Shown piece after piece: positions 2,405 through 46,486 of a stretch of DNA of 46,486 nt. The stretch is from Candidatus Cryptoclostridium obscurum (lineage in GTDB: Bacteria; Bacillota; Dehalobacteriia; UBA7702). The stretch is taken from contig CAJFVQ010000017.1 in assembly GCA_904420535.1 (NCBI GenBank), positions 1-46,486 of the forward strand. Reading direction: 5' to 3'. Each line of letters begins with the position of its first letter. Position 1 is the stretch's first letter. The notes under the pieces are model-generated. The model saw only the letters and a list, made by a program, of their open reading frames with translations, was not told the origin of the DNA and ran no database searches. A program made the translations under genes and the position numbers.

Positions 2405-2709
2405 TGGCTACCTATCTTATAAAAAATCTTGTCGTCAGTTTTCCAATCAATATCCTCAAATCGTTCCAACCAATCTACAGCACTTTAAATGTGCCACTCG
2501 GTTTGATTCCTCTCTTGCTTTGTCAACGACATCAAAACAATTAAGCAAATTGCGAGGAAATAATGATCATTTCCAGAAATTATGGACTGATGACAAAAAA
2601 AGGGACCAATGTAAACAGAATGTAATATCGGAGATATTTACAGCCACATTCCAGATGATTATATCATTTCACCCTTATTTTTTTCTAAAAACAAGGTTCT
2701 TTTCATAAA

Positions 2710-2742
2710 AAAGTCTCGCAGGTAATTTATCTGCGAGACTTT
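2710..2742 (-). terminator. Rho-independent terminator of the ABC transporter/methyltransferase operon
   Basis: aaagtctcgcag-N-ctgcgagacttt hairpin followed by a T tract on the minus strand, just after the ATPase stop. Confidence 0.8.
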
Positions 2743-2746
2743 AAAG

Positions 2747-3526
2747 TTATATATCCGTATTAAAAAAAACATTTTCAAATGGTAGCATTTGTCCATTATA
2801 GACATATTCATGCTGATTTTCAAAGCTTGCAATCATTTCCTGAGGAGTACCGTCAAAAACAATCGCTCCTTTTTCCATACAGAAAATACGCTCTCCCAAT
2901 TTAGCAGCCTCCCTCAAATCATGAGTAATAAAGACAATTGTCAGTTGCAGTTCCTGATGAAGATTCAGCATTTCATTTTGAAGCTTTGTACGAGTAATCT
3001 CGTCCAAAGCACCAAACGGTTCGTCCATGAGAAGAATTCTTGGAGAAGCTGCCAAAGCTCTGGCAACGCCGACTCGTTGCTGTTGCCCACCGGAAAGCTC
3101 GGCTGGATAGCGTTCTAAAATTTCTTCACTGAGTCCGACCGTTTTGATCATCTTTTTTGCAATAAGATCACTTCTTTTTTTATCATATTTCAAGATATCT
3201 GGAATAAACGTAATATTCTTTTTTACATTTAAGTGAGGGAACAGGCCAATACTTTGAATAACATATCCAATTCTACGCCTTAATTCAATTTGGTCGATGG
3301 CGGAAATATCCTGTCCATTGATATAAACTGCGCCTTGATCGGGATTTAGCAATCCATTGATCAATTTCAACATCGTCGTTTTTCCGCAACCTGAACTCCC
3401 GATCACTGTAATAAACTCGCCTTCACGGATTTCAAAACTGACATCCTTTAAAGCAGTATGGTTTCCGTAAGATTTCCAGACATTTTCAAATCGAATGATA
3501 CTGTTTTTTATTTCTGCTTCATTCAT
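2747..3526 (-). CDS. Quaternary-amine/osmoprotectant ABC transporter ATPase (OpuCA/ProV-like, no CBS domains)
   Basis: Walker A GSSGCGKTT, signature LSGGQQQR, Walker B ILLMDEPFGALDE. Confidence 0.88.
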   Translation of the reverse strand: MNEAEIKNSIIRFENVWKSYGNHTALKDVSFEIREGEFITVIGSSGCGKTTMLKLINGLLNPDQGAVYINGQDISAIDQIELRRRIGYVIQSIGLFPHLNVKKNITFIPDILKYDKKRSDLIAKKMIKTVGLSEEILERYPAELSGGQQQRVGVARALAASPRILLMDEPFGALDEITRTKLQNEMLNLHQELQLTIVFITHDLREAAKLGERIFCMEKGAIVFDGTPQEMIASFENQHEYVYNGQMLPFENVFFNTDI

Positions 3527-4424
3527 CTTTGATCAATCCTTTTTGTTTTAAAAAGTTCGCGGCAACCTTTTGCGGATCTTCTCCATAAATGTCCACCGCA
3601 GCATTCATTGTGCGCATTTCTTCATTGGAAATCATGCCATTTAACTTTTGCAGGGCATTGCCCAATTCCGGGTACTTTTCCAAAATTTCATTACGAATCA
3701 CCGTACCACACATAGCTGGTGGAAAATAGTTTTTATCATCTTCCAATTCCACAATATCGGGGTTTTCCATCCTTCCATCGGTTCGATAGATCGTGATGGC
3801 ATCGACTTGATGATCAAGGAGCGCGTTATATTTTAGACTAAGGTTCATTTCTTTTATTTCTTTGAATGTAAAACGATATATTGTCTGAAATCCGTCATAT
3901 CCGTCTTCTCTTTCAAAAAATTCATAACCAGCACCAAAAATAATGTGATCGCTGACAGCTGCAAGATCCGAAAAAGTTTTTATCTGATACTTCTCTGCTG
4001 TTTCTTTTCGTATAGCAATACTATATGTATTATCAAAGCCATAGAAACCCAGCCATTGCATATCATACTTTTTTTGATACTGCTTCTGCAATTCTTCGTG
4101 CATTTCTCCGGTATCATGGGTCACCGGTTCTTTCAGCACCGTCATCCAGGCAGTACTGTCATATTCCGCATAGAGATCAAAATCCCCTTTCTCCATAGCC
4201 GGCATAATGATACTTGTTTCTCCGGCAATGCCCGAAGTTAATTCCACATCCAAATCGGTATATTCCTCCACTATGGCTTTTAATATTTCTCCCAAAATAT
4301 ATTGTTCCGTAAAATCTTTCGCCGCGATCTGAATATCAGCGTTATTTTTTGAGCACCCGGAGAGAAGTCCCCCGGCACAGATCAATGCGATCATGCAAAT
4401 TAGTACAATAATTTTTTGTCTCAT
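3519..4424 (-). CDS. Glycine-betaine/osmoprotectant-type substrate-binding lipoprotein (OpuCC/OsmF-like)
   Basis: Lipobox LLSGCS; 'IQIAAKDFTEQYILGEILKAIVEEYTDLDVEL' typical of the OpuAC/OsmF family; overlaps the ATPase start. Confidence 0.87.
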   Translation of the reverse strand: MRQKIIVLICMIALICAGGLLSGCSKNNADIQIAAKDFTEQYILGEILKAIVEEYTDLDVELTSGIAGETSIIMPAMEKGDFDLYAEYDSTAWMTVLKEPVTHDTGEMHEELQKQYQKKYDMQWLGFYGFDNTYSIAIRKETAEKYQIKTFSDLAAVSDHIIFGAGYEFFEREDGYDGFQTIYRFTFKEIKEMNLSLKYNALLDHQVDAITIYRTDGRMENPDIVELEDDKNYFPPAMCGTVIRNEILEKYPELGNALQKLNGMISNEEMRTMNAAVDIYGEDPQKVAANFLKQKGLIKDE

Positions 4425-4463
4425 GATAGTACCCTCCTCTTCATTCGTAACATGTCATCATAT

Positions 4464-5102
4464 TTATATCAACCTCCTTTTCTTCTTAAGATGTTTTTCG
4501 TACGCGCCGATTAGAAAATCCAAAAGAATCGCCAATAATGCGATTAATAAACTTCCGGCAACAGTCATAGTCTGATTGTTGGTAGTGATTCCCCTATAAA
4601 TGGCAAGTCCCAAGCCACCAGCACCTATATAAGAAGCGATCCCTGCCAAGGAGATAGTCATGACAACCATATTACGGAATCCAGCCAAAATGACTGGCAA
4701 AGCAAGCGGAAATTTGACCTTATAGATTAGTTGGAAACGGGTACATCCCATTCCCTTTGCCGCTTCAATCATACTGGCGTCAATTTCTGTCATGCCAGTA
4801 TAAGTGTTGCGTATGATCGGCAATAAGGCATAGATGATCAATGCAATCACTGCCGTAGTATTACCAATACCAGAGACGGGGAGCAAAAAACCCAATAAAG
4901 AAATGCAAGGAATCGTATAAATGATATTACAGAATCCTAAAACAAACTTCGAAGACTCTTTATACTCACTGATTGCAATACCGAAGAATAGACCGATCAC
5001 CGTGGCAACGATGATTGCAATCCCCGAAAGGTAGAGATGCTGCCACGTTAATTCTAAAAACCAATCAAAGCGGTCGGTATAAAGAGATAATAATGTATCC
5101 AT
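4464..5102 (-). CDS. Osmoprotectant ABC transporter permease (OpuCB/OpuCD-like)
   Basis: BPD_transp_1-type protein; EAA-like 'MIEAAKGMGCTRFQLIYKVKFPLALPVILAGFR'. Confidence 0.88.
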   Translation of the reverse strand: MDTLLSLYTDRFDWFLELTWQHLYLSGIAIIVATVIGLFFGIAISEYKESSKFVLGFCNIIYTIPCISLLGFLLPVSGIGNTTAVIALIIYALLPIIRNTYTGMTEIDASMIEAAKGMGCTRFQLIYKVKFPLALPVILAGFRNMVVMTISLAGIASYIGAGGLGLAIYRGITTNNQTMTVAGSLLIALLAILLDFLIGAYEKHLKKKRRLI

Positions 5103-5242
5103 AGTGCATCCCTCTTTTCGATTTATCTAGAAATGATCTTTTACAAAGCAACTTAGCGGGTAGCGTTCATGCTATCCGCTAAGCTGTTTAACAGCTAGTT
5201 TTCGTAGGCGATACTTTTTAAAACTCATTATCACATAATTAC

Positions 5243-6655
5243 TTACCCCAGAACAGCGTTTCGGTACTCATCGGGCAAAAGCTTTTCAATAATTTTTTTA
5301 CGGCCGTCAGTTAAATCCGGCAATTCATATTCCTCGATCCGTTTTTTCCAAGCCTCTGTCAAAAGATCTTCACAAATCGGCTCGCCATTTTTAACCCAGT
5401 TATTATGAATATCGCGAATATCATATTTGGGTTCATAGAATTCCTTCCGATAAATGGGCAATGTTCTGCCAAGATAGCTGCCGGTAGGTCCCTTTTTCTT
5501 GATTTCTTCAAAGCGGAAAGTTTCTTCGTTTACTTCATAACCTTCCATCAAATGACGGCATTTAATGATATCCTCCTCATCCCAAATGAATTTTTCATAA
5601 CACATGGTATTCATACAGTCCATGGGACCGCAAGCCATGTTGAGAATATCCGCATGGAGCAAATGGGGACTGAGATGATTCATAAATCCCTCGGCACCGC
5701 ATTGGATATCCAAAACTTTGGATTCTCCGGTGCCAACGCCGCTTTGGAGCGGAAAGCCATAGTAATCAGCCATCATCTTGGAGGTAGCACAAGCCCACAT
5801 TGCTTCGATTCCGCCATAAGCAGGTCCCATATTTTTCATATCATTCGATGAGAATCTGGTACAATAAAGGATCGGCGCCCCTGGGCGTAGCAATTGAGAA
5901 TATACAATGGCAGCCAGCACCATGGCATTGCCAATGGTGTAAGCTCCGGCCATAGTCTGGGGACCGGAAGCACCTAACATGACGCCGCTAACGACAGTAC
6001 ATGGCTGGCCGGCTGTACAAAGTACCGACATAGCTTCACAGATATCTTTTGCCAATTGCATTGGACCAACAGTGCAAGTAAGACCATGCATAATAGGTTT
6101 ATCATACATTCCATAAAAATCTTGCATGGTTTTGAAGCACTCTTCCACAACATCCTTACCGCCTAGAACCATACCGTGCATGGGTTTTTTACAGTAACGC
6201 AATGCGACGCCGAGGCCGTATTGATTCCTGATTTCAGGAGCGACATAAGAAATATCAATAATATTAGGATTGGAAATGGCAATGACATCACTGGTTTCAG
6301 ATAATTTATGGAAGTTGACCAAATGATCGTGGCTGGGGGTATCATATTTCCCTTCTTTACGGATATAGATAGGTCCATCAGTGGAATCACATTTTAAATC
6401 CCCCTCACCAATGGTGATATAACCACCGTCCCTGTCATAAAGGCGATATGTACGAGGAACCGTTTTCAGGGCTTCTTCCAACATCTCCTTGGAAATATAA
6501 ACGATTTCACCGTCTACCTTTGCACCGTGTTTCTTAAATAATGCAACCGTTTCCGGAGAGTGAAAAGCCGCACCGACTTCACTAAGGATTTTCACGCTCA
6601 TTTCATGGATGTTTTCTGCATCTTGTTTCGTACCAATGGAGTAATTTAGTTTCAT
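5243..6655 (-). CDS. MttB-superfamily methyltransferase lacking pyrrolysine (quaternary/tertiary amine:corrinoid methyltransferase candidate)
   Basis: COG5598/MttB-like throughout; start reset to ATG at 6655 (MKLNYSIG) after RBS agaaaggag. 'FPLQSGVGTGESKVLDIQCGAEG' aligns without gaps to the Pyl-site motif of the 42.8-44.2 kb MttB, with Thr at the Pyl position. Confidence 0.88.
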   Translation of the reverse strand: MKLNYSIGTKQDAENIHEMSVKILSEVGAAFHSPETVALFKKHGAKVDGEIVYISKEMLEEALKTVPRTYRLYDRDGGYITIGEGDLKCDSTDGPIYIRKEGKYDTPSHDHLVNFHKLSETSDVIAISNPNIIDISYVAPEIRNQYGLGVALRYCKKPMHGMVLGGKDVVEECFKTMQDFYGMYDKPIMHGLTCTVGPMQLAKDICEAMSVLCTAGQPCTVVSGVMLGASGPQTMAGAYTIGNAMVLAAIVYSQLLRPGAPILYCTRFSSNDMKNMGPAYGGIEAMWACATSKMMADYYGFPLQSGVGTGESKVLDIQCGAEGFMNHLSPHLLHADILNMACGPMDCMNTMCYEKFIWDEEDIIKCRHLMEGYEVNEETFRFEEIKKKGPTGSYLGRTLPIYRKEFYEPKYDIRDIHNNWVKNGEPICEDLLTEAWKKRIEEYELPDLTDGRKKIIEKLLPDEYRNAVLG

Positions 6656-6695
6656 AGTACCAACTCCTTTCTGTGATAGGTAAAGTAGTAATGTT

Positions 6696-7997
6696 TCAGG
6701 CGCGTTTGACCTGTTTCGCTTGGTTTCTCGCTTCGATTTCCTCCGCTCTGACTTCAGCGATGGTTTCCCTGTTCCGTGCACGGAAGATCAAAGAACTGAC
6801 GATTCCGATCATACCGAAGACAACAAGCATAATAAAGATGTTTCTCCATGCCATTTCCATGGGCAGATTATCCAGCCACCGACCAATAATAGGAGGCAGT
6901 ACGGCATCGGTTGCATAAATTAATGTTGCATAAAAACCAATGGCAGAACCGGTAAGATTCATCGGAACGCGACATTCTCTCATGGGAGCATACATTTGAC
7001 CGCGGAAAGCCCCGGTTAAAATTATCTCAATGGCAATCACAATGAGGAAAACCCACATCATAGAGGTGTTTTTCGGTAAGAATATGAAAAACAAAGCGAT
7101 GATAGTGAGACAAATATTGAGGAACAGAATAACTTTGCTGGGACCAAATTTGTCTCCAAGCCAACCTACTGTAAAGTTGCCCACCGGCTTAAACCACTGA
7201 TTCATTAAACCAACGTAAGCCGCAATGGCAACGGAAAGTCCAAATGCCGTTGTACCAAAAGTCCCCATATAGGAACCAATGACGCTGCCGACAGTATAAC
7301 CACCCATAGCCATAAGACCGACGAGCCAAATATTTGGATCTTTGAGACACCGTACCAAAAGCTTAAAGGGATTCTCCTGATTGATTACATCTTCTTCTGA
7401 AGATTCATCTTTGCCGCCAAAAGCAAAGAAGGCAAGGATCCCAAAAATAATAAGCAAGGCGGCATACATCCACATGACGAAACGAAGGCCGGAAACGGAA
7501 TTATTAAATTGAGAGAACATGAATACAGCAAAGGTGGCGGCAACAATCGAAAATACACTTCTTGTGCCTTCCATTGCACCAAAACTTTTACTCTCTGAGC
7601 CTACAGCGCGACCAAATTGCCTTGTCAGCTTTAGGAAAGAGCCCCAGAATGTAAGGGTCGTAGACGCGCCCATAATTGCATAGAGAGCCAAACTGATCCC
7701 GTAATTTGGGAAAAGTCCCAGTGCAAAGTTACATAAACCGGTTACAATAAAAGATATCGTAACCAAAAGTCGGGGGTGGATTTTATCAGCTAAAATACCG
7801 CCGATAAAATAGGTAAGACAGGAGACCGTTAATGCGACAGTGGACATAAATCCAAATTGAGTGTTGGATACCGCAAACGCCATAGTGAAGGCGTCATAGA
7901 AACTGCCGCGGCAAAACAGAATATAGAAAATCGCATTTGAGCCACATCCTAAGATTAAAAATTGGATCACCTGTCGACTTTGTAATTTACTTGCCAT
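6696..7997 (-). CDS. Major facilitator superfamily transporter
   Basis: ~12 hydrophobic segments; 'GGILADKIHPRLLVTISFIVTGL' MFS signature; RBS agaaggtgag. Confidence 0.88.
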   Translation of the reverse strand: MASKLQSRQVIQFLILGCGSNAIFYILFCRGSFYDAFTMAFAVSNTQFGFMSTVALTVSCLTYFIGGILADKIHPRLLVTISFIVTGLCNFALGLFPNYGISLALYAIMGASTTLTFWGSFLKLTRQFGRAVGSESKSFGAMEGTRSVFSIVAATFAVFMFSQFNNSVSGLRFVMWMYAALLIIFGILAFFAFGGKDESSEEDVINQENPFKLLVRCLKDPNIWLVGLMAMGGYTVGSVIGSYMGTFGTTAFGLSVAIAAYVGLMNQWFKPVGNFTVGWLGDKFGPSKVILFLNICLTIIALFFIFLPKNTSMMWVFLIVIAIEIILTGAFRGQMYAPMRECRVPMNLTGSAIGFYATLIYATDAVLPPIIGRWLDNLPMEMAWRNIFIMLVVFGMIGIVSSLIFRARNRETIAEVRAEEIEARNQAKQVKRA

Positions 7998-8101
7998 AAG
8001 CTCTCACCTTCTCCTGATTAACGAATTGAGGTGTTTTCCCAAAGATTGGGAGATGCTTTCATTCAGTAATTCTCCACAAAGCAACGCAATGAATTCCTCA
8101 T

Positions 8102-8737
8102 TTATTTGACAAGTGCCCATTCTCGACAAATTGCCACGCCTTCTTGAGGATTGGTTGTCCAAGCATCGGCTCCTGCGTCTTTGCAGGCTTGATCGGTAAC
8201 AGGGTTCCCGCCCAAAATCACATGAACATTATCTCTGATCCCAGCATCTTTTAATGCCTGCACCGTATCTTTCATCGAGTCTATGGCCAATGTCAAAATA
8301 CCGCTGAGACCGATAATTTTCGCACCATTTTCTTTCGCCGCTGCAACAATATCTTCAGGAGCGACATCAACGCCGAGGTCTACCACTTCAAAACCGGCCG
8401 CCCCCATCATGGCTTTGACAATGTTTTTACCAATGTCGTGAATATCGCCGGCAACGGTACAGAGGATAATTTTACCAAGGTCTTCAGAGCTGTCCGCAGC
8501 AAGGAGCGGACGAAGTGCTTCTGTTGCTTGGCCCATCAACTCCCCTGCAAAAATCAAATCTCCGACAAAGTAATCGCCCTTTTCAAACATTTCTCCTACA
8601 ATTCCCATTCCTTCTTGGCAGGCGGCAATGGCTTGACCGGCATCACCTTGGGTTTCTACAACCTCGTTGATGATATTCATTGCCGTTTCGTCATCCATTT
8701 CACTAATAGCTGTTTTTAATTTTTCAAAATCCAACAT
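8102..8737 (-). CDS. Corrinoid protein (MttC/MtbC-like, B12-binding)
   Basis: B12-binding motif GDIHDIGKNIV plus GLSGILTL and GG motifs; RBS aaaggagg. Confidence 0.93.
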   Translation of the reverse strand: MLDFEKLKTAISEMDDETAMNIINEVVETQGDAGQAIAACQEGMGIVGEMFEKGDYFVGDLIFAGELMGQATEALRPLLAADSSEDLGKIILCTVAGDIHDIGKNIVKAMMGAAGFEVVDLGVDVAPEDIVAAAKENGAKIIGLSGILTLAIDSMKDTVQALKDAGIRDNVHVILGGNPVTDQACKDAGADAWTTNPQEGVAICREWALVK

Positions 8738-8783
8738 ACTGAAAACCTCCTTTGATTTTTATTGACACCAATCTTCATTCAGA

Positions 8784-9584
8784 TCATTTGGAACCAAATT
8801 TGCCTTGACGGTAAGCGCGGTTATATTTACGGCAATATTTATCCCGGTCGAGCAATGCTTCCACCGCATAAAGCGTTCCGCACATATCTCTGTTCTCCGG
8901 ATCCATAATTGCCGCATCCATACCGACGGACAAGGCCAAAGCTAGAAAATTCATGTTTACAATTTTCCGATAAGGCATACCGTAAGAAATATTAGAGAGA
9001 CCCGATACGGTTTTAACCGTGGGATAAGCTTCTTTAATTTGCCGCACTGCTTCCATAAAAGAAAGCATACAGTCGCTTACCGCGGATAAGGATAGGACAA
9101 GAGGATCAATAAAAATGCGATCCGGTGCAATATCATAATGAGCGGCTTCCTCAATCAACCCTTTTGCAATCGCAACTTTTTTATCCGCAGTTTCGGGGAT
9201 ACCGTTGTTATCGCAGGTAAGGGCGATCACTTTCCAATCGGTGCCCTTTAATAACGGATAAATAATCCCGCATTTATCCCCTTCGCCGGAAACAGAATTG
9301 ATTAACCCGTTTTGTTTGACCCTGGGTAAAACCTTCTCAATCATTTTCGCATCAGGACTGTCTACGCAAAGTGGCTTATCGCTTTCATCCTGGACGATGT
9401 CGATAAGCCAAACCAAAGCATCCAATTCATCATCAGGATTGGTGCCCGCACAAACATCAAGATAGTCCGCGCCCGCATCTGTTTGACGTCGCGCCAAATT
9501 ACGAATAAATGCTTCATCTCGTTTGGCAATGGCCTCCCCTACAGAAGGGATTGCGCCATTAATTTTTTCACCAATCACAAGCAT
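8784..9584 (-). CDS. Methyltetrahydrofolate:corrinoid methyltransferase (pterin-binding MeTr family, MtgA/MtvA-like)
   Basis: 'GEKINGAIPSV..', 'GADYLDVCAGTNPDDELDALVWLIDIVQDESDKPLCVDSPD', 'SGLSNISYGMPYR' typical of MetH pterin-binding/AcsE-like proteins. Confidence 0.88.
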   Translation of the reverse strand: MLVIGEKINGAIPSVGEAIAKRDEAFIRNLARRQTDAGADYLDVCAGTNPDDELDALVWLIDIVQDESDKPLCVDSPDAKMIEKVLPRVKQNGLINSVSGEGDKCGIIYPLLKGTDWKVIALTCDNNGIPETADKKVAIAKGLIEEAAHYDIAPDRIFIDPLVLSLSAVSDCMLSFMEAVRQIKEAYPTVKTVSGLSNISYGMPYRKIVNMNFLALALSVGMDAAIMDPENRDMCGTLYAVEALLDRDKYCRKYNRAYRQGKFGSK

Positions 9585-9742
9585 TGTAATCACCCTCCAT
9601 TCTTTTGAACATTACAAGATATTGTTACATTATGGCAACCTAGTTTTTCCATTCATCCGATCTCACCATCTGTCAGCGTTATCGATTGATTTAAGTATAC
9701 TGCCGCTTTATTGTTGATATAATTGTCAATAAGAGAAAATAT

Positions 9743-9771
9743 TTGACAATATTTTGCACATAGTGTAACAT
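9743..9771 (+). promoter_or_regulatory. Candidate sigma-70-type promoter for the PucR regulator gene
   Basis: TTGACA - 17 nt - TAACAT. Confidence 0.5.
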
Positions 9772-9894
9772 ATTAAAATAAAAGCATAAAATTAAACATA
9801 GTTTAGAACTCATTAAAACAAATCGTGTTCTACAAACTTACAGTATCGTTGTGAGGTCAATCGATCTAAGATCATCTTAAAGGAAGTGTGGCAT

Positions 9895-11136
9895 ATGTTG
9901 ATTTATAATCCCATTACGATGTCTGAAGTGCTCAAAATGGAAGTTTTTCGGGATGCCAAACTGGTTGCGGGTGAAGAAGGCTTAAATAAAGAAGTCAGTT
10001 GGATCCACCCTTTGGAAATTTGGGATGACCCGAAAAAATGGATTGATGGCGGAGAATTGATTTTTTGCTGTGCCCTTGGTGTCAACGATGAAGAGACCTT
10101 GATTTCTTTCTTTCAGCAAGTACTGCAAAAAGGGGTTGCCGGCTTTTGTTTACAACTGCATGCGCATTTAAAAAATACCCCATCGCGAATGATTGAATTG
10201 GCCAATCATTATCATTGTCCACTGATCATATTTGAGCAATCTGTTCGTTTTATCGATATTAGCCGCTCCCTTCTTAATACTTTAATCATGAATGTCAATC
10301 CCGATTATTTGCGGGAAAAACAAGTGCTGGAAGAAAATCATTGGATGACAGATTGGTTTTACGGCCGTATCTCCAATGATTCTGTCCGACAGCGGCTAAA
10401 AATGGATTCTGCGGAACTAACAAAATTTTCTTATTTCTCCGTATTGATGTCTTATCACAAAGAAAAGGTCTCGCATCGACATTTTGAAGGGGTTTATCTT
10501 TCTCTTGCAAAAAAATTACGCGCATATTTCGAAAGCGAGCAATTCCTATTTTATCCCCTGTTTGCCGATGGATTGCTTGCCGGTGTAGTTTTAGACTATG
10601 GGGTAAATTCCACCTGGAAAGACCGATTTTACAAAGTGGTAAAAGAGGTCAACGCGGATTTTCTAGCAAAAGGCAATAAAGACCGATTGGTTCTTGCCGC
10701 AGGCCAACGCTCTAATCATATCGAGGATATCCCCTGGAGTTACCGAACTGCCATGGAAACGATAGATGTGTGTCAGCGTTTTCATATCGGCCAATCTATT
10801 TATGACGATTTAAACCTTTTTTTTCTGTTCTCTCTCATCGACGATGCCGGAAATATGGAGCGACTGCAACAATATACATCAGAGCAGCTATCCCCTTTAA
10901 TTGAGGCTGACTATTCCCAAAATGGGAAACTGATCAACACCTTAAAATGCTATTATGAATGTAATGGAAATAAACAATTAACTGCTCAAAAACTGGGAAT
11001 CTCCAGGAGAACCCTTTATTATCGTTTGGAACAAATCGAAGAAATTTTGGGAACCGACCCTTTACTCCCCAAAAAGAGACTAATGATAGAGATCAGTTTT
11101 GTGTTACAGGATTATTTCAAAAATGAAGGAAGCTGA
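9895..11136 (+). CDS. PucR-family transcriptional regulator
   Basis: N-terminal PucR-type domain ('MSEVLKMEVFRDAKLVAGEEGLNKEVSWIHPLEIWDD'), C-terminal HTH_30 ('NTLKCYYECNGNKQLTAQKLGISRRTLYYRLEQIEEILG'); divergent from the methyltransferase operon. Confidence 0.88.
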   Translation: MLIYNPITMSEVLKMEVFRDAKLVAGEEGLNKEVSWIHPLEIWDDPKKWIDGGELIFCCALGVNDEETLISFFQQVLQKGVAGFCLQLHAHLKNTPSRMIELANHYHCPLIIFEQSVRFIDISRSLLNTLIMNVNPDYLREKQVLEENHWMTDWFYGRISNDSVRQRLKMDSAELTKFSYFSVLMSYHKEKVSHRHFEGVYLSLAKKLRAYFESEQFLFYPLFADGLLAGVVLDYGVNSTWKDRFYKVVKEVNADFLAKGNKDRLVLAAGQRSNHIEDIPWSYRTAMETIDVCQRFHIGQSIYDDLNLFFLFSLIDDAGNMERLQQYTSEQLSPLIEADYSQNGKLINTLKCYYECNGNKQLTAQKLGISRRTLYYRLEQIEEILGTDPLLPKKRLMIEISFVLQDYFKNEGS

Positions 11137-23353: not shown

Positions 23354-25183
23354 TCACTCTACGGTAACGCTTTTGGCCAAATTTCTCGGTTGATCCACAT
23401 CGGCTCCACGTTTTACCGAAGCATAATAGGCAATGAGCTGTAATGGGATTACCGTGAGGATCGGTGAAAGCAAGTCATAGGTATTCGGCAACTTAATTAC
23501 CGTGTCAGACACCTTTTCCCCATGATTGTCGCCTTCAAAGACAAAAGTAAGGACCTTGGCATCGCGAGTCTTTACCTCCACCATATTGCTGATCATTTTT
23601 TCTTCCACGTCCCGCTGCGTGCAGAGACAGATCACAGGCACCTGATCTACAATCAGGGCTAAGGTACCATGTTTCAATTCACCAGCAGCATAGGCTTCGG
23701 CATGGATATAGGAGATTTCTTTTAATTTCAAAGCACCTTCTAACGCTACCACATAATCGAGGCCGCGACCAATAAAGAAGGCGTTTTCTGATTCCGCCAC
23801 CGTTTCCCCGAGGACTTTGATGGCATCGGGATCACGATCTAAAATTTCCTGCACCTTCTCAGGCAGACGATATAATTCATCGAGATATTGCTTAATCTCG
23901 TTCCGCTCCATCTTCCCACAGATTTCCGCCATATAAAATCCTAAAAGATAAATGGATAACAGCTGCGTACTGTAGGCCTTGGTGGAAGCCACAGCAATTT
24001 CCAAACCGGCTCGAGTATAGATTACATCGTCGGCCTCTCTGGCAATAGAGCTTTCCCAAACATTGGTAATGGCAAGGATATGGCTGCCTTTCTTTTTGGC
24101 TTCCGCCAACGCTGCCAGCGTATCGGCAGTTTCACCGCTTTGGGAAACGACAATGGTAAGAGTATGCTCATCCACAATGGGGTCACGATAACGAAATTCC
24201 GAAGCAATATCCACTTCTACAGGAATGCGGAGAATCTTTTCATAAATATATTTGCCCACAAAGCAGGCATGGTAAGCGGTACCGCAGGCCACCATCATGA
24301 TTTTATTGATAGAAGCCATTTTTTCACGGTCCAGCTTCAATTCTCCCAAATTGACCATGGGTTCATTGGGAGTGATGCGTCCCGAAAGACAATCCCGCAG
24401 CGCGCGAGGCTGCTCATGAATTTCTTTTAACATGAAATGATCGTAACCGCCTTTTTCCGCAGCAGCAATATCCATGGTAAGAGGGAGAACTTCCGGTTCG
24501 ACTTTTTCCCCGTTTTGATATACGGTAATACTGTCTTTCGTCAAAACAGCGCTTTCATCATTTTTCAATACAATATATTGATCAACATAACCGATCAGGG
24601 CGGGGATATCCGACGCCAGATAGTTTCCGTTTTTGCCATAACCGACGATCAAAGGACTGTCTTTCCGAATGGCCACCAATACACCAGGTTCTTTTTCTGT
24701 CATAAAAACAGCAGCATAAGAACCTCTCAAGCGTTTTTCCGCTTTCCATACAGCCTGGAGCAAATCACCTTCGTAACAATCGGCCAAAAGATTGGGAAGA
24801 ACTTCCGTATCAGTCTCAGAGGAAAAGACGTGTCCCTTTTCCATGAGTTCTTTTTTCAGGTCAAGATAGTTTTCAATAATGCCGTTATGCACCACGGCGA
24901 AATGGCCGTCGTCATTACGGTGGGGATGTGAATTGCGGTCCGACGGTGCGCCATGGGTCGCCCAACGCGTATGGGCAATTCCGTAAGTACCGTTGATGGT
25001 TTCTCCGGCAATGGCTTTTTCCAATTCGGAAATCTTACCGACTTTCCGCCGAACGATAATATTGCCGTTATCATAAACGGCGATCCCTGCAGAATCATAT
25101 CCGCGATACTCCAATTTTTTCAAACCGTTGATCAGAAAAGGCAATGCCGCCTCGGTTCCGATGCAACCTGCAATGCCACACAT
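23354..25183 (-). CDS. glmS: Glucosamine--fructose-6-phosphate aminotransferase (isomerizing)
   Basis: 'MCGIAGCIGTEAALPFLINGLKKLEYRGYDSAGIA', two SIS domains, C-terminal 'QPRNLAKSVTVE'. Confidence 0.98.
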   Translation of the reverse strand: MCGIAGCIGTEAALPFLINGLKKLEYRGYDSAGIAVYDNGNIIVRRKVGKISELEKAIAGETINGTYGIAHTRWATHGAPSDRNSHPHRNDDGHFAVVHNGIIENYLDLKKELMEKGHVFSSETDTEVLPNLLADCYEGDLLQAVWKAEKRLRGSYAAVFMTEKEPGVLVAIRKDSPLIVGYGKNGNYLASDIPALIGYVDQYIVLKNDESAVLTKDSITVYQNGEKVEPEVLPLTMDIAAAEKGGYDHFMLKEIHEQPRALRDCLSGRITPNEPMVNLGELKLDREKMASINKIMMVACGTAYHACFVGKYIYEKILRIPVEVDIASEFRYRDPIVDEHTLTIVVSQSGETADTLAALAEAKKKGSHILAITNVWESSIAREADDVIYTRAGLEIAVASTKAYSTQLLSIYLLGFYMAEICGKMERNEIKQYLDELYRLPEKVQEILDRDPDAIKVLGETVAESENAFFIGRGLDYVVALEGALKLKEISYIHAEAYAAGELKHGTLALIVDQVPVICLCTQRDVEEKMISNMVEVKTRDAKVLTFVFEGDNHGEKVSDTVIKLPNTYDLLSPILTVIPLQLIAYYASVKRGADVDQPRNLAKSVTVE

Positions 25184-25287
25184 ATACGAGAAGCTCCTTT
25201 CGTGCAGTGTTCATTTTCTTTTGGGGAACTTTTATCTCTCTATGTTCGCCAAAGATAGTCTATTCGACAAAAGGTCTCAAATTCCTG

Positions 25288-26637
25288 CTATTGTAAAACA
25301 GAGATCATGACACTGACCAATTCGTCGAGAACCTTCCCCAATTCTTCTTCATCAGGACCCTCTCCCATGACCCGCAGCAACGGTTCCGTACCGGAAGGAC
25401 GAATCAAAATGCGTCCCGTATCTCCTAGCCGCGTTTCTGCTTTTTTTACTGCTTCCAAAACTTTTGGTTCTTTGTCCCAATCATCTCTGCGTCCTACCGT
25501 GACGTTGCGGAGGATCTGAGGAAGCGGCGTCATAATTTTGGACAATTCCGCCAAGGATTTTCCTGTTTCTAACATGATTTGCAATACCATCAGACTGGTG
25601 AGCATGCCGTCACCGGTGGGATTGTATTTGGACAGAATGATATGTCCCGACTGTTCACCGCCGATGACGGCACCGGTGCGGTCCATTTCAACCATGACAT
25701 TCTTATCGCCAACCTTTGTCTCCGACAAAGTAATCCCCCGCTCCTTCATGGCAAGGCGCAATCCCAAATTACTCATGACTGTGACGACCAAGCGGTGATC
25801 AGGAAGCATATCATTTTCCTTCAAATAATTGGCAATGATTGCCATAATCATATCGCCATCCACGGTATTGCCGACACCGTCAGCCATAATCACCCGGTCA
25901 CCGTCGCCGTCGTATGCAATGCCCATATCGGCAACTTCATTCCACACTGTGGATTTCATCGAAGCCGGTTTGGTGCTGCCACATTCTTCATTAATATTGA
26001 CGCCGTCATAATCCTTGTTAATGGGGATCACACGGGCCCCCATGGAGGAGAGCATTGTAACAGCGTAATCCGAGGTGGCGCCGTTTGCACAGTCAACAAC
26101 GAGTTTAAAACGAGAAAGATCCATGGGGAACAAGCGTTTCAAACGGGCAATATAGTCTTCACCGCCTTTTTTGTCATAAACAAGGCAGCCGATCTCATTG
26201 CCCCGTTTCAAAGGAGGAAAATCCTTTTGATCCAGGAATTTTTCAAGCTTCTCTTCCATTGTATCCGGCAGTTTTCTACCGTCTGCTCCAAAAATTTTAA
26301 TTCCGTTATCATAAAAAGGATTATGGGATGCGGAAATGACCACCCCGGCAGAGGCATTCCGTTCTCTGACCAAAGAAGAAACGGCAGGCGTGGGAATAAT
26401 CCCCAGAGTCACGGCATTGCCGCCGTAAGCACAGATCCCCGCTACGAGAGCTCCTTCCAACATGGTTCCTGAAATACGTGTATCACGACCAATTAGGATC
26501 GTGGGTTTTTCTTCTTTATGTTCCATAGCATCGGCTAAAATTAACGATAACGCTGCGCCGATCTCATAAGCCAAGGTCGGCGTAAGCACAACATTGGCTT
26601 CTCCGCGGACACCGTCGGTTCCAAATCGTTTTTTCAT
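25288..26637 (-). CDS. glmM: Phosphoglucosamine mutase, UAG-terminated
   Basis: 'KKRFGTDGVRGEAN', catalytic 'GVVISASHNPFYDNGIKIF', 'DGDGDR', 'RPSGTEPLLRVM'. Confidence 0.97.
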   Translation of the reverse strand: MKKRFGTDGVRGEANVVLTPTLAYEIGAALSLILADAMEHKEEKPTILIGRDTRISGTMLEGALVAGICAYGGNAVTLGIIPTPAVSSLVRERNASAGVVISASHNPFYDNGIKIFGADGRKLPDTMEEKLEKFLDQKDFPPLKRGNEIGCLVYDKKGGEDYIARLKRLFPMDLSRFKLVVDCANGATSDYAVTMLSSMGARVIPINKDYDGVNINEECGSTKPASMKSTVWNEVADMGIAYDGDGDRVIMADGVGNTVDGDMIMAIIANYLKENDMLPDHRLVVTVMSNLGLRLAMKERGITLSETKVGDKNVMVEMDRTGAVIGGEQSGHIILSKYNPTGDGMLTSLMVLQIMLETGKSLAELSKIMTPLPQILRNVTVGRRDDWDKEPKVLEAVKKAETRLGDTGRILIRPSGTEPLLRVMGEGPDEEELGKVLDELVSVMISVLQ

Positions 26638-38789: not shown

Positions 38790-40334
38790 ATGGATCGTCA
38801 TTTTTTTGAAAAAGACCCCGTATTACGCGATATTTTTAATCATTTGGGCGATGCTGTTTATTTTATTGACAGCCATGGCGCGATTCTTTTCATGAACAAA
38901 GCCGCGGAAATTCTGGACGGCTACACTTTCGAAGAAGCACGGGGGCGAACCGTTACGGAGTTATACGGTTTAGATAAGACCACTAGTCCTTTGCTACATG
39001 TAGCATCTTCCAAAGAGCCCCTTTGCAATCATGCATTTCGCTATTATGTCAACAATCAGGATGTGTATCAAGTTTGCAATACGTTCCCCATTCATCTCTC
39101 TGACGGCACCTGCGGCGCTTTTTCTATTCAGCGCGATATGACCAAATTAAAGCAGACCATTGAGAACAATATTAAGCTCCAAAAACAGCTTTTTGATTTT
39201 CGAGAAAAATCATCCGGAGAAGGACAAAAAGGTGACACGCTCTACCATTTTGACGACATTATCGGCGAGCATCAACGCCTAAAGGAATGCAAAACGCTGG
39301 CTTACAACGCGGCCCAAAGCAATTCTCCTATTATGCTTAGCGGCTTAACAGGAACAGGGAAAGAATTATTTGCACAAAGTATTCATTCCGCAAGTCCCCG
39401 GCGGAACGAGACATTTTTGGCCATTAACTGTGCCGCCATTCCGGAGAGTCTATTGGAAGGAATACTTTTCGGTACAGTGAAAGGCGTATATACCGGCGCA
39501 TCAGACAGAAAGGGGCTGTTTGAAGAGGCCAACGGAGGCACCCTGTTTTTGGATGAAATCAATTCCATGCCATTATCCTCTCAATCCAAACTTCTCAGAG
39601 TTCTGGAAGAAAAATATGTACAGCCCCTGGGTAGCAAAGAGCGAATCAGGATTGACACTAGGATCATCAGCAGTTGCAACACTTATCCCCAAGAAGCCAT
39701 GGAAAAGAAACAGATCAGGGAAGATCTCTTTTACCGTTTGGCAGTGGTCAATATTCTGATTCCCCCTTTAAAGGAAAGAAAAAGCGATATCTTCCAACTG
39801 GCTCATCATTTCATTGCAAAATATAATGCCGCCTACGGAAAAAACGTTCTTGCCATGGAAGATGACATTACCACCTTTTTCCTGGATTATGATTGGCCGG
39901 GCAATGTGCGTCAGCTAAAACACTGCATTGAATGCGCTGTCAATTTGGTAAGCCCGGGAGAAACTACCATCAAGGAAAAACATCTCCCTTTTTATATCAA
40001 AGAAAATAAACCCAAAAGATACTATTTGGAATTTCAAAACATCGATAAAACCGTCGACGGCAACGCCCTATCTCAACCATTTCAAAAAGAAACGCCTTCC
40101 TCTCCCGTATATTTTAGTGAACGATTGACGGCAGCCAACGCGGCAGCAAAAGATAACATTGTAGACGCCATTGAAGAAAAAGAAAAGGAAAATATCATTC
40201 AGGCGATGCTGCGCAACGGCGGCAATATCAGTAAAAGTGCCAGAGACTTGGGAATGTCTCGGCAAACTTTGACTTACCGTATGAAAAAATATGGTATTTA
40301 CCAGGAACGACGACATAGAAAAACAAAAGCATAA
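38790..40334 (+). CDS. PAS-domain sigma-54-dependent transcriptional activator (RocR-like)
   Basis: PAS N-terminus; AAA+ Walker A GLTGTGKE, loop 'FGTVKGVYTGA', 'GGTLFLDEINSMP'; C-terminal Fis-type HTH 'NGGNISKSARDLGMSRQTLTYRMKKYGI'. Confidence 0.95.
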   Translation: MDRHFFEKDPVLRDIFNHLGDAVYFIDSHGAILFMNKAAEILDGYTFEEARGRTVTELYGLDKTTSPLLHVASSKEPLCNHAFRYYVNNQDVYQVCNTFPIHLSDGTCGAFSIQRDMTKLKQTIENNIKLQKQLFDFREKSSGEGQKGDTLYHFDDIIGEHQRLKECKTLAYNAAQSNSPIMLSGLTGTGKELFAQSIHSASPRRNETFLAINCAAIPESLLEGILFGTVKGVYTGASDRKGLFEEANGGTLFLDEINSMPLSSQSKLLRVLEEKYVQPLGSKERIRIDTRIISSCNTYPQEAMEKKQIREDLFYRLAVVNILIPPLKERKSDIFQLAHHFIAKYNAAYGKNVLAMEDDITTFFLDYDWPGNVRQLKHCIECAVNLVSPGETTIKEKHLPFYIKENKPKRYYLEFQNIDKTVDGNALSQPFQKETPSSPVYFSERLTAANAAAKDNIVDAIEEKEKENIIQAMLRNGGNISKSARDLGMSRQTLTYRMKKYGIYQERRHRKTKA

Positions 40335-41754: not shown

Positions 41755-42432
41755 TCAACCATTTTTCTCCATCCGCTCAGTCAAAAGACGAAGGGCGCAT
41801 TGAGCAGCATCTTGCCCATTGGCGGCATAAGCATCAGCACCAATCGATTCCGCCCAACGCCGTGTCACCGGAGCGCCGCCGACCATCGTCCGGAAGCGTC
41901 CTTTTAATCCACGCTCCCGCAAAGCTATTTCCAGCTTCTCCTGTTGTAAAATAGTCGTGGTCAGCAAAGCGGAAGTCGCGATGATGGAAGCGTCATATTC
42001 CAATGCCTTGCGGATAATCACATCATTTGGGACATCACACCCCAAATCAATCACATGCAATCCTTCAGAGCGCATCACAGATACGACCAAACATTTGCCA
42101 ATATCATGAATATCTCCCTCCACTGTAGCAATTATGATCGTTTCCAAAGGCAAAGATGGAAAGCGAGGCACCTGTGCTATCATATCGACCATGGAAGAAA
42201 TTGCCTTCATGGCATCAGCCGCCAAAGTTAATTCAGAGAGAAAAATGCGGCCTTTACCAAAGGCCTCTCCAACTTCATGGAGGCCACGACCGAAACCATT
42301 CATAAATAGCTCTATAGGGTCGATTCCTGCATCCAAACCACGATGCATGGCGGCTACGGCTTCTGCTTTATTACACTTCACAATCGCCGAAGCCGCATCA
42401 TTCAATATGTCATACTTGCTGTTAGAATTCAT
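41755..42432 (-). CDS. Corrinoid protein (MttC-like)
   Basis: B12-binding motif 'GDIHDIGKCLV', 'TSALLTTTILQQ', 'GGAPVT'; downstream of the Pyl-type mttB. Confidence 0.92.
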   Translation of the reverse strand: MNSNSKYDILNDAASAIVKCNKAEAVAAMHRGLDAGIDPIELFMNGFGRGLHEVGEAFGKGRIFLSELTLAADAMKAISSMVDMIAQVPRFPSLPLETIIIATVEGDIHDIGKCLVVSVMRSEGLHVIDLGCDVPNDVIIRKALEYDASIIATSALLTTTILQQEKLEIALRERGLKGRFRTMVGGAPVTRRWAESIGADAYAANGQDAAQCALRLLTERMEKNG

Positions 42433-42751: not shown

Positions 42752-44224
42752 TTATTTTACGCCTTCTTCTTCCGCAGCTTCGGCTAAAATATCGTCTATC
42801 AATACATCAGTACCGGCCGGAAGCGGATCCGGTTTGTGGTTTTCCAAGATATATTTTGCTTTTTCGGTGGCACGTTCTAATAAGTCTTTGCCGCCCATTT
42901 CTTCCCAACCTTCTCTCATACGACGATCAAAGAGCGTCGTAGATGATTGGACTTTACGGAAATTGTCAAAAGTATGCATATTGGTAACGAATTCTTTTCC
43001 GACACCGACTTCTTTAATCACGTTGGTCGCCATGGTGTAGTCGTTAACATCAATTCCTTTCACAACATGCTTGATCATTTCAGCGATCTCGTTGTCGATG
43101 ACCAATTGCGCAAAGTCAAAGGTGATGCCAAGTTCCAACATCCCGAGTCCATAAATCACATTGGCACCTGCCAATGCGGGGAGCATCGCGGTGATGGTTT
43201 TTTCATGCGCAGCCTGACCGTCAGCACATTTGCTGTCTGCCTAACCGCCCGCAACCCAGCTGGGCAATCCGTAAAACTGAGCCAATTTAGCAACAGCGGC
43301 GTTGATCATCCCCAACTCGGGGCAGCCAACAGGAGAAGTTGTGAATTTCAGGTCCATAATTGAAGTAGAGCTGCCATAAACCACGGGAGCACCTTTGACA
43401 GTGGCCTGAGATAATACAAGAGCTGCCAATGCTTCACAGTTGTGCGTGACCAAGGTGCCAGCCAAAGTGACCGGTGTGGTACCGCCGGCCAACGCCATGG
43501 AAATAATCGTGATTGGGACTCCCAGACGGGCACATTCCATAATCATATCCGTACTTTCAGGAACCAACTGTAAAGGACTAATGGGACAAGTGATGGAACT
43601 GTAAATCGGTCTTTCTCTGAATTGCTCCTCACCGCCGGAAATGTGACACATCAATTTATAGATGCGGCGAAGATTACGGGTATTGCCACACCCCTGCACG
43701 ATGTGTTTCGAGCAGTTCTTGGTATTAACCGCTACCTCATGTAAGGGGGCAATCACAGCGGGGACATCCTGGGCAGATACGGCACGTTCATGAATATCAA
43801 TCGCGGAAAGATAATCAGCCATCAAAGCAGCTTGACCACAGTCTTTCTTCGTCGTTCTGCGATATTCGCCGGTATAAAGGTCATTGATCATGATACCTTC
43901 GCCAAAATTAGTAAAACCGGTACGATTATCTTCTAAAACGTAATCTTTTTCCGGATTGCGTGCGGCAAAGGTAATGGAACGCGGCGCCATGCGGATGGCA
44001 TCTTCCACAACATAATTGGGGAAATGAACAATATCGTTCTTTTTATCCACAATACAACCAACGGCCGCCAAAGCTTCTTGAGCATCAGGATCAGCGATGC
44101 CAATCCCAACATCTTTTAAAACTTCTAAAGTGGAAAGGTGGAGTGCGTATAACTCATCATCGCTGAAAAGATTTACGCCAAAACCGGAGAGTTGCGAGTA
44201 ACCAGCTCTAAAATTTTTTGCCAT
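42752..44224 (-). CDS. mttB: Trimethylamine:corrinoid methyltransferase MttB with in-frame UAG read as pyrrolysine (Pyl328), 490 residues
   Basis: ORFs 43241..44224 and 42752..43186 share a frame and are separated by one TAG at 43241-43243; 18 sense codons (ADSKCADGQAAHEKTITA) join the TAG to the second ORF's Met; junction '...LPSWVAGG-O-ADSKCADGQAAHEKT...' is continuous MttB sequence; RBS aaggagg before ATG 44224; natural stop TAA. Confidence 0.93.
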
Positions 44225-46066: not shown

Positions 46067-46486
46067 TTATTTTCTATCAATGCAGGCTTGAACTACAGCT
46101 TCTACAGCTTTCACCTTGTCATCGGAGATGGGCTGGGGATGATGATTCGCGAGGATATCAACAACGAGTTCATGGGCTCTTTCCGTGAAGTTTTTAGACC
46201 CTGCATTTTGCCAATTTTCATAGATATCCCTATCGGACATATAAGGTTTCCAAAGTTCGGAACGAAGATGTTTCATGGTATGAGGATGTCCCAAGAAGTT
46301 TCCGCCGTAGGAAGGATCGTCAACGACATCTCTCACAACATCAACAGCGCAAGTATCTTCATTCACATCGTATCCTTTAATTGCAAATTGAACCAGGGAA
46401 GCGATTTCGTTATCGATCACAAGTTTTTCGTAGGAAGCTTCGAGAACGTTATCCAAAGAACCGGAGGCACCGCAAACATCAACACC
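46067..46486 (-). CDS. MttB-superfamily methyltransferase, C-terminal part (cut by window end)
   Basis: Open to the last base (GVDVCGASGSLDNVLEASYEKLVIDNEIASLVQFAIKGYDVNEDT...); 'LVIDNEIA' and the C-terminal region resemble the 42.8 kb MttB. The Pyl-site region lies outside the window. Confidence 0.88.
   Translation of the reverse strand, partial: GVDVCGASGSLDNVLEASYEKLVIDNEIASLVQFAIKGYDVNEDTCAVDVVRDVVDDPSYGGNFLGHPHTMKHLRSELWKPYMSDRDIYENWQNAGSKNFTERAHELVVDILANHHPQPISDDKVKAVEAVVQACIDRK

Follow-up and report, generated by a model that had tools for sequence, protein, structure and literature searches.

A pyrrolysine-free MttB cassette with apparently O-demethylase-type carrier partners and predicted betaine import in Candidatus Cryptoclostridium obscurum

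The window analysed here, the whole 46,486-nucleotide contig CAJFVQ010000017.1 (contig 17 of the 2.1-Mb, 99% complete genome of Candidatus Cryptoclostridium obscurum, assembly GCA_904420535.1), was found to contain a cassette of seven minus-strand open reading frames (ORFs) at positions 2747-9584. In the order of transcription these encode a methylcobamide:tetrahydrofolate (THF) methyltransferase (MTII), a corrinoid methyl-carrier protein (CoP), a major facilitator superfamily (MFS) transporter, an MttB-superfamily corrinoid methyltransferase (MTI), and the permease, substrate-binding protein (SBP) and ATPase of an ATP-binding cassette (ABC) transporter. With moderate confidence, the cassette is read as a substrate-inducible system for the import and demethylation of a betaine that is not, or not only, glycine betaine; the methyl-transfer chemistry alone is held with higher confidence than this whole statement. 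The SBP, permease and ATPase would import the carboxylated betaine, and the MFS transporter would import substrate or exchange it for demethylated product. The MttB-type enzyme would then use one N-methyl group of the substrate to methylate the Co(I) form of the CoP, followed by the transfer of the methyl group to THF by the MTII and the feeding of methyl-THF into the Wood-Ljungdahl pathway. The removal of the methyl group would probably serve the energy supply of this anaerobe. The CoP and MTII would have been recruited from an O-demethylase/URO-D lineage and dedicated to the cassette; the other MttBs of the genome would use other CoPs and an MTII adjoining pylBC.

All seven genes were matched by Pfam/NCBIfam models (Pterin_bind/PRK07535, B12-binding with B12-binding_2, MFS_1, MTTB, BPD_transp_1, OpuAC and ABC_tran), and good ribosome-binding sites were found, for example at the starts of MTII (GGAGGGTGATTACA-ATG at 9584) and MttB (AAAGGAGTTGGTACT-ATG at 6655). 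The ORFs, ribosome sites and models thus agree with the seven co-directional genes and families named in a preliminary description of the window. Its term "complete" for the operon was too strong, since the cluster contains no reductive activase: no ORF for one was found inside it, and a genome-wide activase search was not made. The reductive activase is not always clustered in known three-component systems.

Conservation of the cassette in a second genus

The search for orthologs took in 399 genomes sampled from the phylum as well as a scan of 84,980 species. The MttB was found to have an ortholog in one other genome only, the sister genome G003 of a different genus (84% identity), and no further ortholog-level MttB was found among the 399 genomes or in the species scan. 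Among named records, the orthologous locus was closest to an uncultured Peptococcaceae metagenome-assembled genome. The G003 locus was split over two contigs: one contained a divergent PucR gene and the genes MTII-CoP-MFS-MttB-permease and stopped shortly past the permease, and the other contained SBP-ATPase and broke off within the SBP. MTI, CoP and MTII, encoded together in the window, keep this grouping in G003. The protein identities were 49% (PucR), 66-78% and 84% (MttB), and a gene order kept in another genus at 49-84% protein identity is not due to chance.

The differences between the window and G003 were found to be concentrated at third codon positions (56/37/240 in MttB), a pattern by which the cassette is judged to be under purifying selection. 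The synonymous divergence (dS) between the two genomes was saturated and therefore no dN/dS-type ratio is quoted. The presence and absence of the cassette type were compared in four related genomes. G001 and G002, the congeners of G003, contained neither the cassette MttB nor its SBP, and the MTIIs found there were only ~38% identical. The cassette therefore seems to have been gained or lost as a unit.

The MttB-type enzyme and its carrier partners

The MttB gene (5243-6655, minus strand) was found to encode a full-length PF06253 domain (residues 9-454, 255 bits) with no in-frame stop or TAG. In the alignment to MtgB and pyrrolysine-containing MttB, Thr309 occupied the pyrrolysine position of Methanosarcina MttB, and the earlier assignment to the pyrrolysine-free members was borne out. 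A 512-aa product from a GTG start was rejected because it overlaps the MFS gene, and the ATG start has the good ribosome site. A pyrrolysine-free MttB with a CoP and a THF methyltransferase is a known type of system.

The placement of this protein in an MttB tree, proposed in the preliminary description, was carried out with 61 proteins, a set that includes MtgB and leaves out the E. limosum enzymes MtpB, MtcB, MtyB and MthB. The window MttB and its G003 ortholog formed a two-genome clade with a branch length of 1.53, outside the MtgB clade (support 98/95), and the nearest non-ortholog neighbours were two Formimonas-like proteins (~30% identity, support 95/97). A substrate read-out from the tree was tried and given up, as the branch is isolated and the nearest non-ortholog is only ~30% identical. 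No substrate clue came from the genes around the Formimonas-like MttB that is nearest, which were octopine dehydrogenase-like, racemase-like, PanB-like and branched-chain ABC genes. The window MttB resembles MtgB (PDB 2qne, 9yce) as a full-length member of the MttB fold family without pyrrolysine that is alignable over 440 residues, but it shares only ~30% identity with it, and MtgA, the MTII partner of MtgB, had no match to the window MTII.

A further glycine betaine system of the MtgB type with redundant transport is considered unlikely. It would be suited by the MtgB structures being the best solved relatives of the window MttB (190 bits), by the frequent carriage of glycine betaine by OpuC/ProX-type transporters and by the SBP, in which the three-residue carboxylate clamp of A. 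fulgidus ProX is intact. However, the tree places the MttB outside the MtgB clade, and the SBP has lost its fourth cage tyrosine. The MtgB clade was found to hold the genome's own, separate MtgB ortholog on contig C96, adjoining a BCCT transporter gene for glycine betaine (695.8 bits against a cut-off of 650), and contig C2 holds relatives of two MttBs from the Formimonas-like genome G010. By position and gene order, the G010 region of those two MttBs would be the glycine-betaine-induced cluster of PMC9768040. Glycine betaine is therefore likely to have dedicated loci elsewhere in the genome. On C96 (18000-27005), the MtgB ortholog and the BCCT gene were followed by carbamoyltransferase, amino acid permease, agmatine-deiminase-like and amino-acid-kinase genes.

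The MTII (8784-9584, minus strand), of the O-demethylase MT2 type, scored 347 bits with PRK07535 (cut-off 259) and was found to be 59% identical to PDB 4o0q and ~60% identical to a protein of G010 whose gene cluster includes two URO-D methyltransferases. Its pterin-site motifs CVDS, INS, IDPL and GLSN were aligned to AcsE. The CoP (8102-8737, minus strand) contained the B12-binding and B12-binding_2 domains and a GDIHDIG motif, with 4jgi as the best PDB match (48%) and 54% identity to the CoP of the same G010 cluster. In their trees both proteins grouped with the G010 URO-D cluster and with 4jgi/4o0q, parts of the D. hafniense O-demethylase (100/99), and they stood apart from the MttB-linked CoPs and MTIIs. 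Because of this grouping, the cassette looks like a hybrid of an MttB-type MTI and an acceptor half of the O-demethylase/URO-D type. Whereas O-demethylases use an MTI of the URO-D fold, the sole MTI of the cassette is the PF06253 protein and, unlike the related G010 cluster, the cassette contains no URO-D-family MTI. The G010 cluster is likely to be the ancestral context of the CoP/MTII pair; at G010:C1:566000-580000 it was found to contain MFS, URO-D, MTII, CoP, URO-D, MFS, CoP and GntR regulator genes. The comparison set of MtgB, MtpB and MtcB chosen earlier would point to a standard MttB system, from which the cassette departs through its O-demethylase/URO-D-type CoP and MTII.

The whole genome was found to contain nine B12-binding_2 and four Pterin_bind matches against 42 MttB matches, and no MTII of the MtrH family (PF02007). 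On these counts most MttBs must share partners, whereas the window MttB has a CoP and MTII of its own. On contig C90 (12500-18500), the genes for PylB and PylC, identified by NCBIfam equivalog matches that exceed the cut-off, were directly followed by an MTII gene. The pyrrolysine gene cluster thus seems to include a THF methyltransferase, which may be the common acceptor for the other MttBs. An acetyl-CoA synthase gene (AcsB/CdhC) and an AcsE-like MTII were present elsewhere in the genome. The acetyl-CoA synthase gene, the family membership and the synteny give good support to the uptake-and-demethylation module proposed earlier; its description as self-contained and as one transcript is put in question by the hairpins before the ABC genes.

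The ancestry of the CoP and MTII, the MttB branch length of 1.53 and the hairpin or terminator between MttB and the ABC genes could also be accommodated by an MttB acting on a donor other than a quaternary amine, such as a methoxy or sulfonium compound, with the ABC genes as an unrelated neighbour. This is regarded as quite unlikely, since the characterised MttB-superfamily members in the literature examined all use methylamines or quaternary amines, the substrate range resides in the MTI and is not set by the CoP/MTII ancestry, and the ABC permease is kept beside MttB across genera. If the hybrid ancestry holds functionally, the substrate-specific and methyl-acceptor halves would be interchangeable across corrinoid methyltransferase families, which would bear on substrate prediction in other methylotrophic anaerobes.

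Binding-protein site and ligand class

The SBP (3519-4424, minus strand) was found to be a lipoprotein of the cluster F-III type (ProX/EgtU/OpuC) with an OpuAC match of 204 bits. Among PDB entries 8dp6 ranked first (243 bits, 43% identity), followed by sensor proteins, OpuCC (160 bits), EgtUC and ProX. The entry 8dp6 is presumably the EgtU of H. pylori.

The SBP site was numbered through A. fulgidus ProX (AfProX; sequence checked against 1sw1) and the EgtUC equivalences of PMC9732360. The carboxylate clamp was complete, with K36/T91/R172 at AfProX K13, T66 and R149. The cage contained Y88/Y134/Y213 at AfProX Y63, Y111 and Y190, followed by A237 at Y214, so that three of the four cage aromatics of the ProX and EgtU proteins were kept, and the fold family is the same. 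Ala-Met at the fourth cage site was found only in the two cassette SBPs; all other aligned relatives (~20) contained Tyr.

The kept clamp and the replacement of the fourth cage tyrosine by alanine suggest, as read from the residues, a betaine that carries a carboxylate and an unusual ammonium group, for example a ring-bearing one such as proline betaine, pipecolate betaine or trigonelline. The clamp makes choline-like alcohols less likely as ligands. The substrate of the cassette is probably other than plain glycine betaine, because the MttB stands on its own branch, the carrier parts are of the methoxy-degrader type and the SBP is altered. The earlier statement that the substrate cannot be read from sequence was partly wrong, as the clamp and the altered cage narrow the class.

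A cassette for the demethylation of ergothioneine (or hercynine) would follow from the EgtU-type closeness of the SBP, whose match to 8dp6 exceeds that to OpuCC. It is nevertheless highly improbable. The ergothioneine determinants F293, Y337 and G244 of SpEgtUC (PMC9732360) were found to be replaced by Y88, F130 and F38, as in the glycine-betaine-binding AfProX, and G244F lowers the affinity ~100-fold (PMC9732360). One cage tyrosine is missing, no pairing of ergothioneine with MttB was found in the literature search, and the SBP and permease are separate genes, in contrast to the fused permease and binding domain of EgtU.

A bolder form of the betaine reading is put forward only tentatively. 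The cassette would be a re-wired system in which a deep-branching MttB charges an O-demethylase-type CoP/MTII pair, and the SBP cage would have been opened by the Tyr-to-Ala change for a bulky or ring-bearing ammonium betaine outside the published MttB substrates. Most of the many MttB homologs have no known substrate. The cassette ties one such homolog to an SBP with a readable, titratable ligand site, and the substrate should therefore be findable by a quick binding screen before anaerobic enzymology.

Transcription units, transporters and neighbouring genes

Hairpins were found between MttB and the permease in both genomes. The window stem-loop (5146-5189, minus strand), an attenuator/terminator or RNA-processing element, contained 19-nt arms of 84% complementarity and no strong T-run, so that read-through is possible. 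The G003 counterpart contained a 17-nt stem and a T-rich tail, followed by a TATAAT box (TTATAATAT). From these hairpins and the terminator-like arrangement in G003, two transcription units are plausible, on a par with one seven-gene transcript.

Several points weigh against import and demethylation by one cassette. The ABC genes may be transcribed on their own and serve a different ligand, and in G003 they are tied to MttB through the permease plus two contig ends. The cassette was found in only two genomes. The window MttB is only ~30% identical to any characterised relative, so its substrate class could have changed.

The PucR-family regulator gene (9886-11136, plus strand), with PucR and HTH_30 Pfam matches, is divergent from the cassette and has a 49% ortholog at the equal position in G003; it is the probable regulator of the cassette. 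The divergent intergenic gap contained a perfect inverted repeat at 9722-9750 (ATTGTCAA-13-TTGACAAT) overlapping a TTGACA hexamer, with only a weak counterpart in G003, and it is taken with low confidence as a candidate operator/promoter region. An intrinsic terminator (2706-2740, minus strand) was found directly after the ATPase stop, with a perfect 10-bp stem (AGTCTCGCAG - 9 nt - CTGCGAGACT) followed by TTTTTT. The PucR gene, this terminator and the MttB-permease hairpin had been omitted from the preliminary description.

The ABC permease (4464-5102, minus strand), a single gene of the OpuC/ProW type, was identified by BPD_transp_1 and ProW-like NCBIfam matches and has a 76% ortholog adjoining MttB in G003. 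The ATPase (2747-3526, minus strand; 259 aa) is ProV/OpuCA-like without a C-terminal extension and contained an ABC_tran match, with TIGR01186 (proV) as the best match, below its cut-off. The MFS transporter (6696-7997, minus strand; MFS_1), for putative substrate uptake or product exchange, had no PDB relative by sequence.

The layout resembles that of the choline cluster mthA-mthC-EamA transporter-mthB of E. limosum (PMC12155760), which also contains MTII, CoP, transporter and MttB-family MTI genes adjacent on one strand, a transporter gene that separates those for CoP and MTII from the one for the MTI, and a divergent partner gene (mthK). The likeness is one of layout: EamA and choline kinase are present there, whereas MFS, PucR, an OpuC/ProX-type ABC transporter and no kinase are present here. 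The MtcB and MtyB loci of E. limosum for carnitine and gamma-butyrobetaine (PMC8604678) likewise contain a pyrrolysine-free MttB adjoining an MFS gene and a divergent regulator, but the regulator there is RocR-like of the Fis type, and MtqC/MtqA are shared and encoded elsewhere, unlike the local CoP and MTII of the cassette.

The MFS subfamily was found to have 8 members in the genome at E <= 1e-15, the window gene included, on contigs C1, C2, C10, C12, C16, C17, C77 and C81. All 8 had an MttB gene no more than 2.1 kb away, and for five of them the distance was within 150 bp (binomial p ~1e-7 for 8/8 under random placement, an approximate value as the MttB loci are clustered and the window gene is counted). 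This pairing generalises the published MFS genes beside mtcB and mtyB (PMC8604678), and the subfamily may have a general role in the transport of MttB substrates or products.

The density of MttB genes was very high, with 34 of the 42 matches at least 1.3 kb long. About nine full-length MttBs contained a single in-frame TAG, likely for pyrrolysine, including one in the window (42779-44176) beside a CoP gene (41755-42432). A further window MttB is cut by the contig end (MttB spans 42752-44224 and 46067-46456). On contig C2 (22621-25470), a TAG-bearing MttB was followed by three MttB fragments (24093-24644, 24707-24886 and 24922-25470), perhaps a decaying second copy.

The cassette is flanked in the window by aldo/keto reductase and pyruvate phosphate dikinase-type genes, and the G003 flanks differ, consisting of DUF2691 and serine hydroxymethyltransferase-like genes; the translations were the source of the names dikinase and hydroxymethyltransferase. 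A PAS-sigma54 activator with a Fis-type helix-turn-helix (38790-40334) was found near the pyrrolysine MttB locus of the window and resembles the RocR-like regulators beside mtcB/mtyB.

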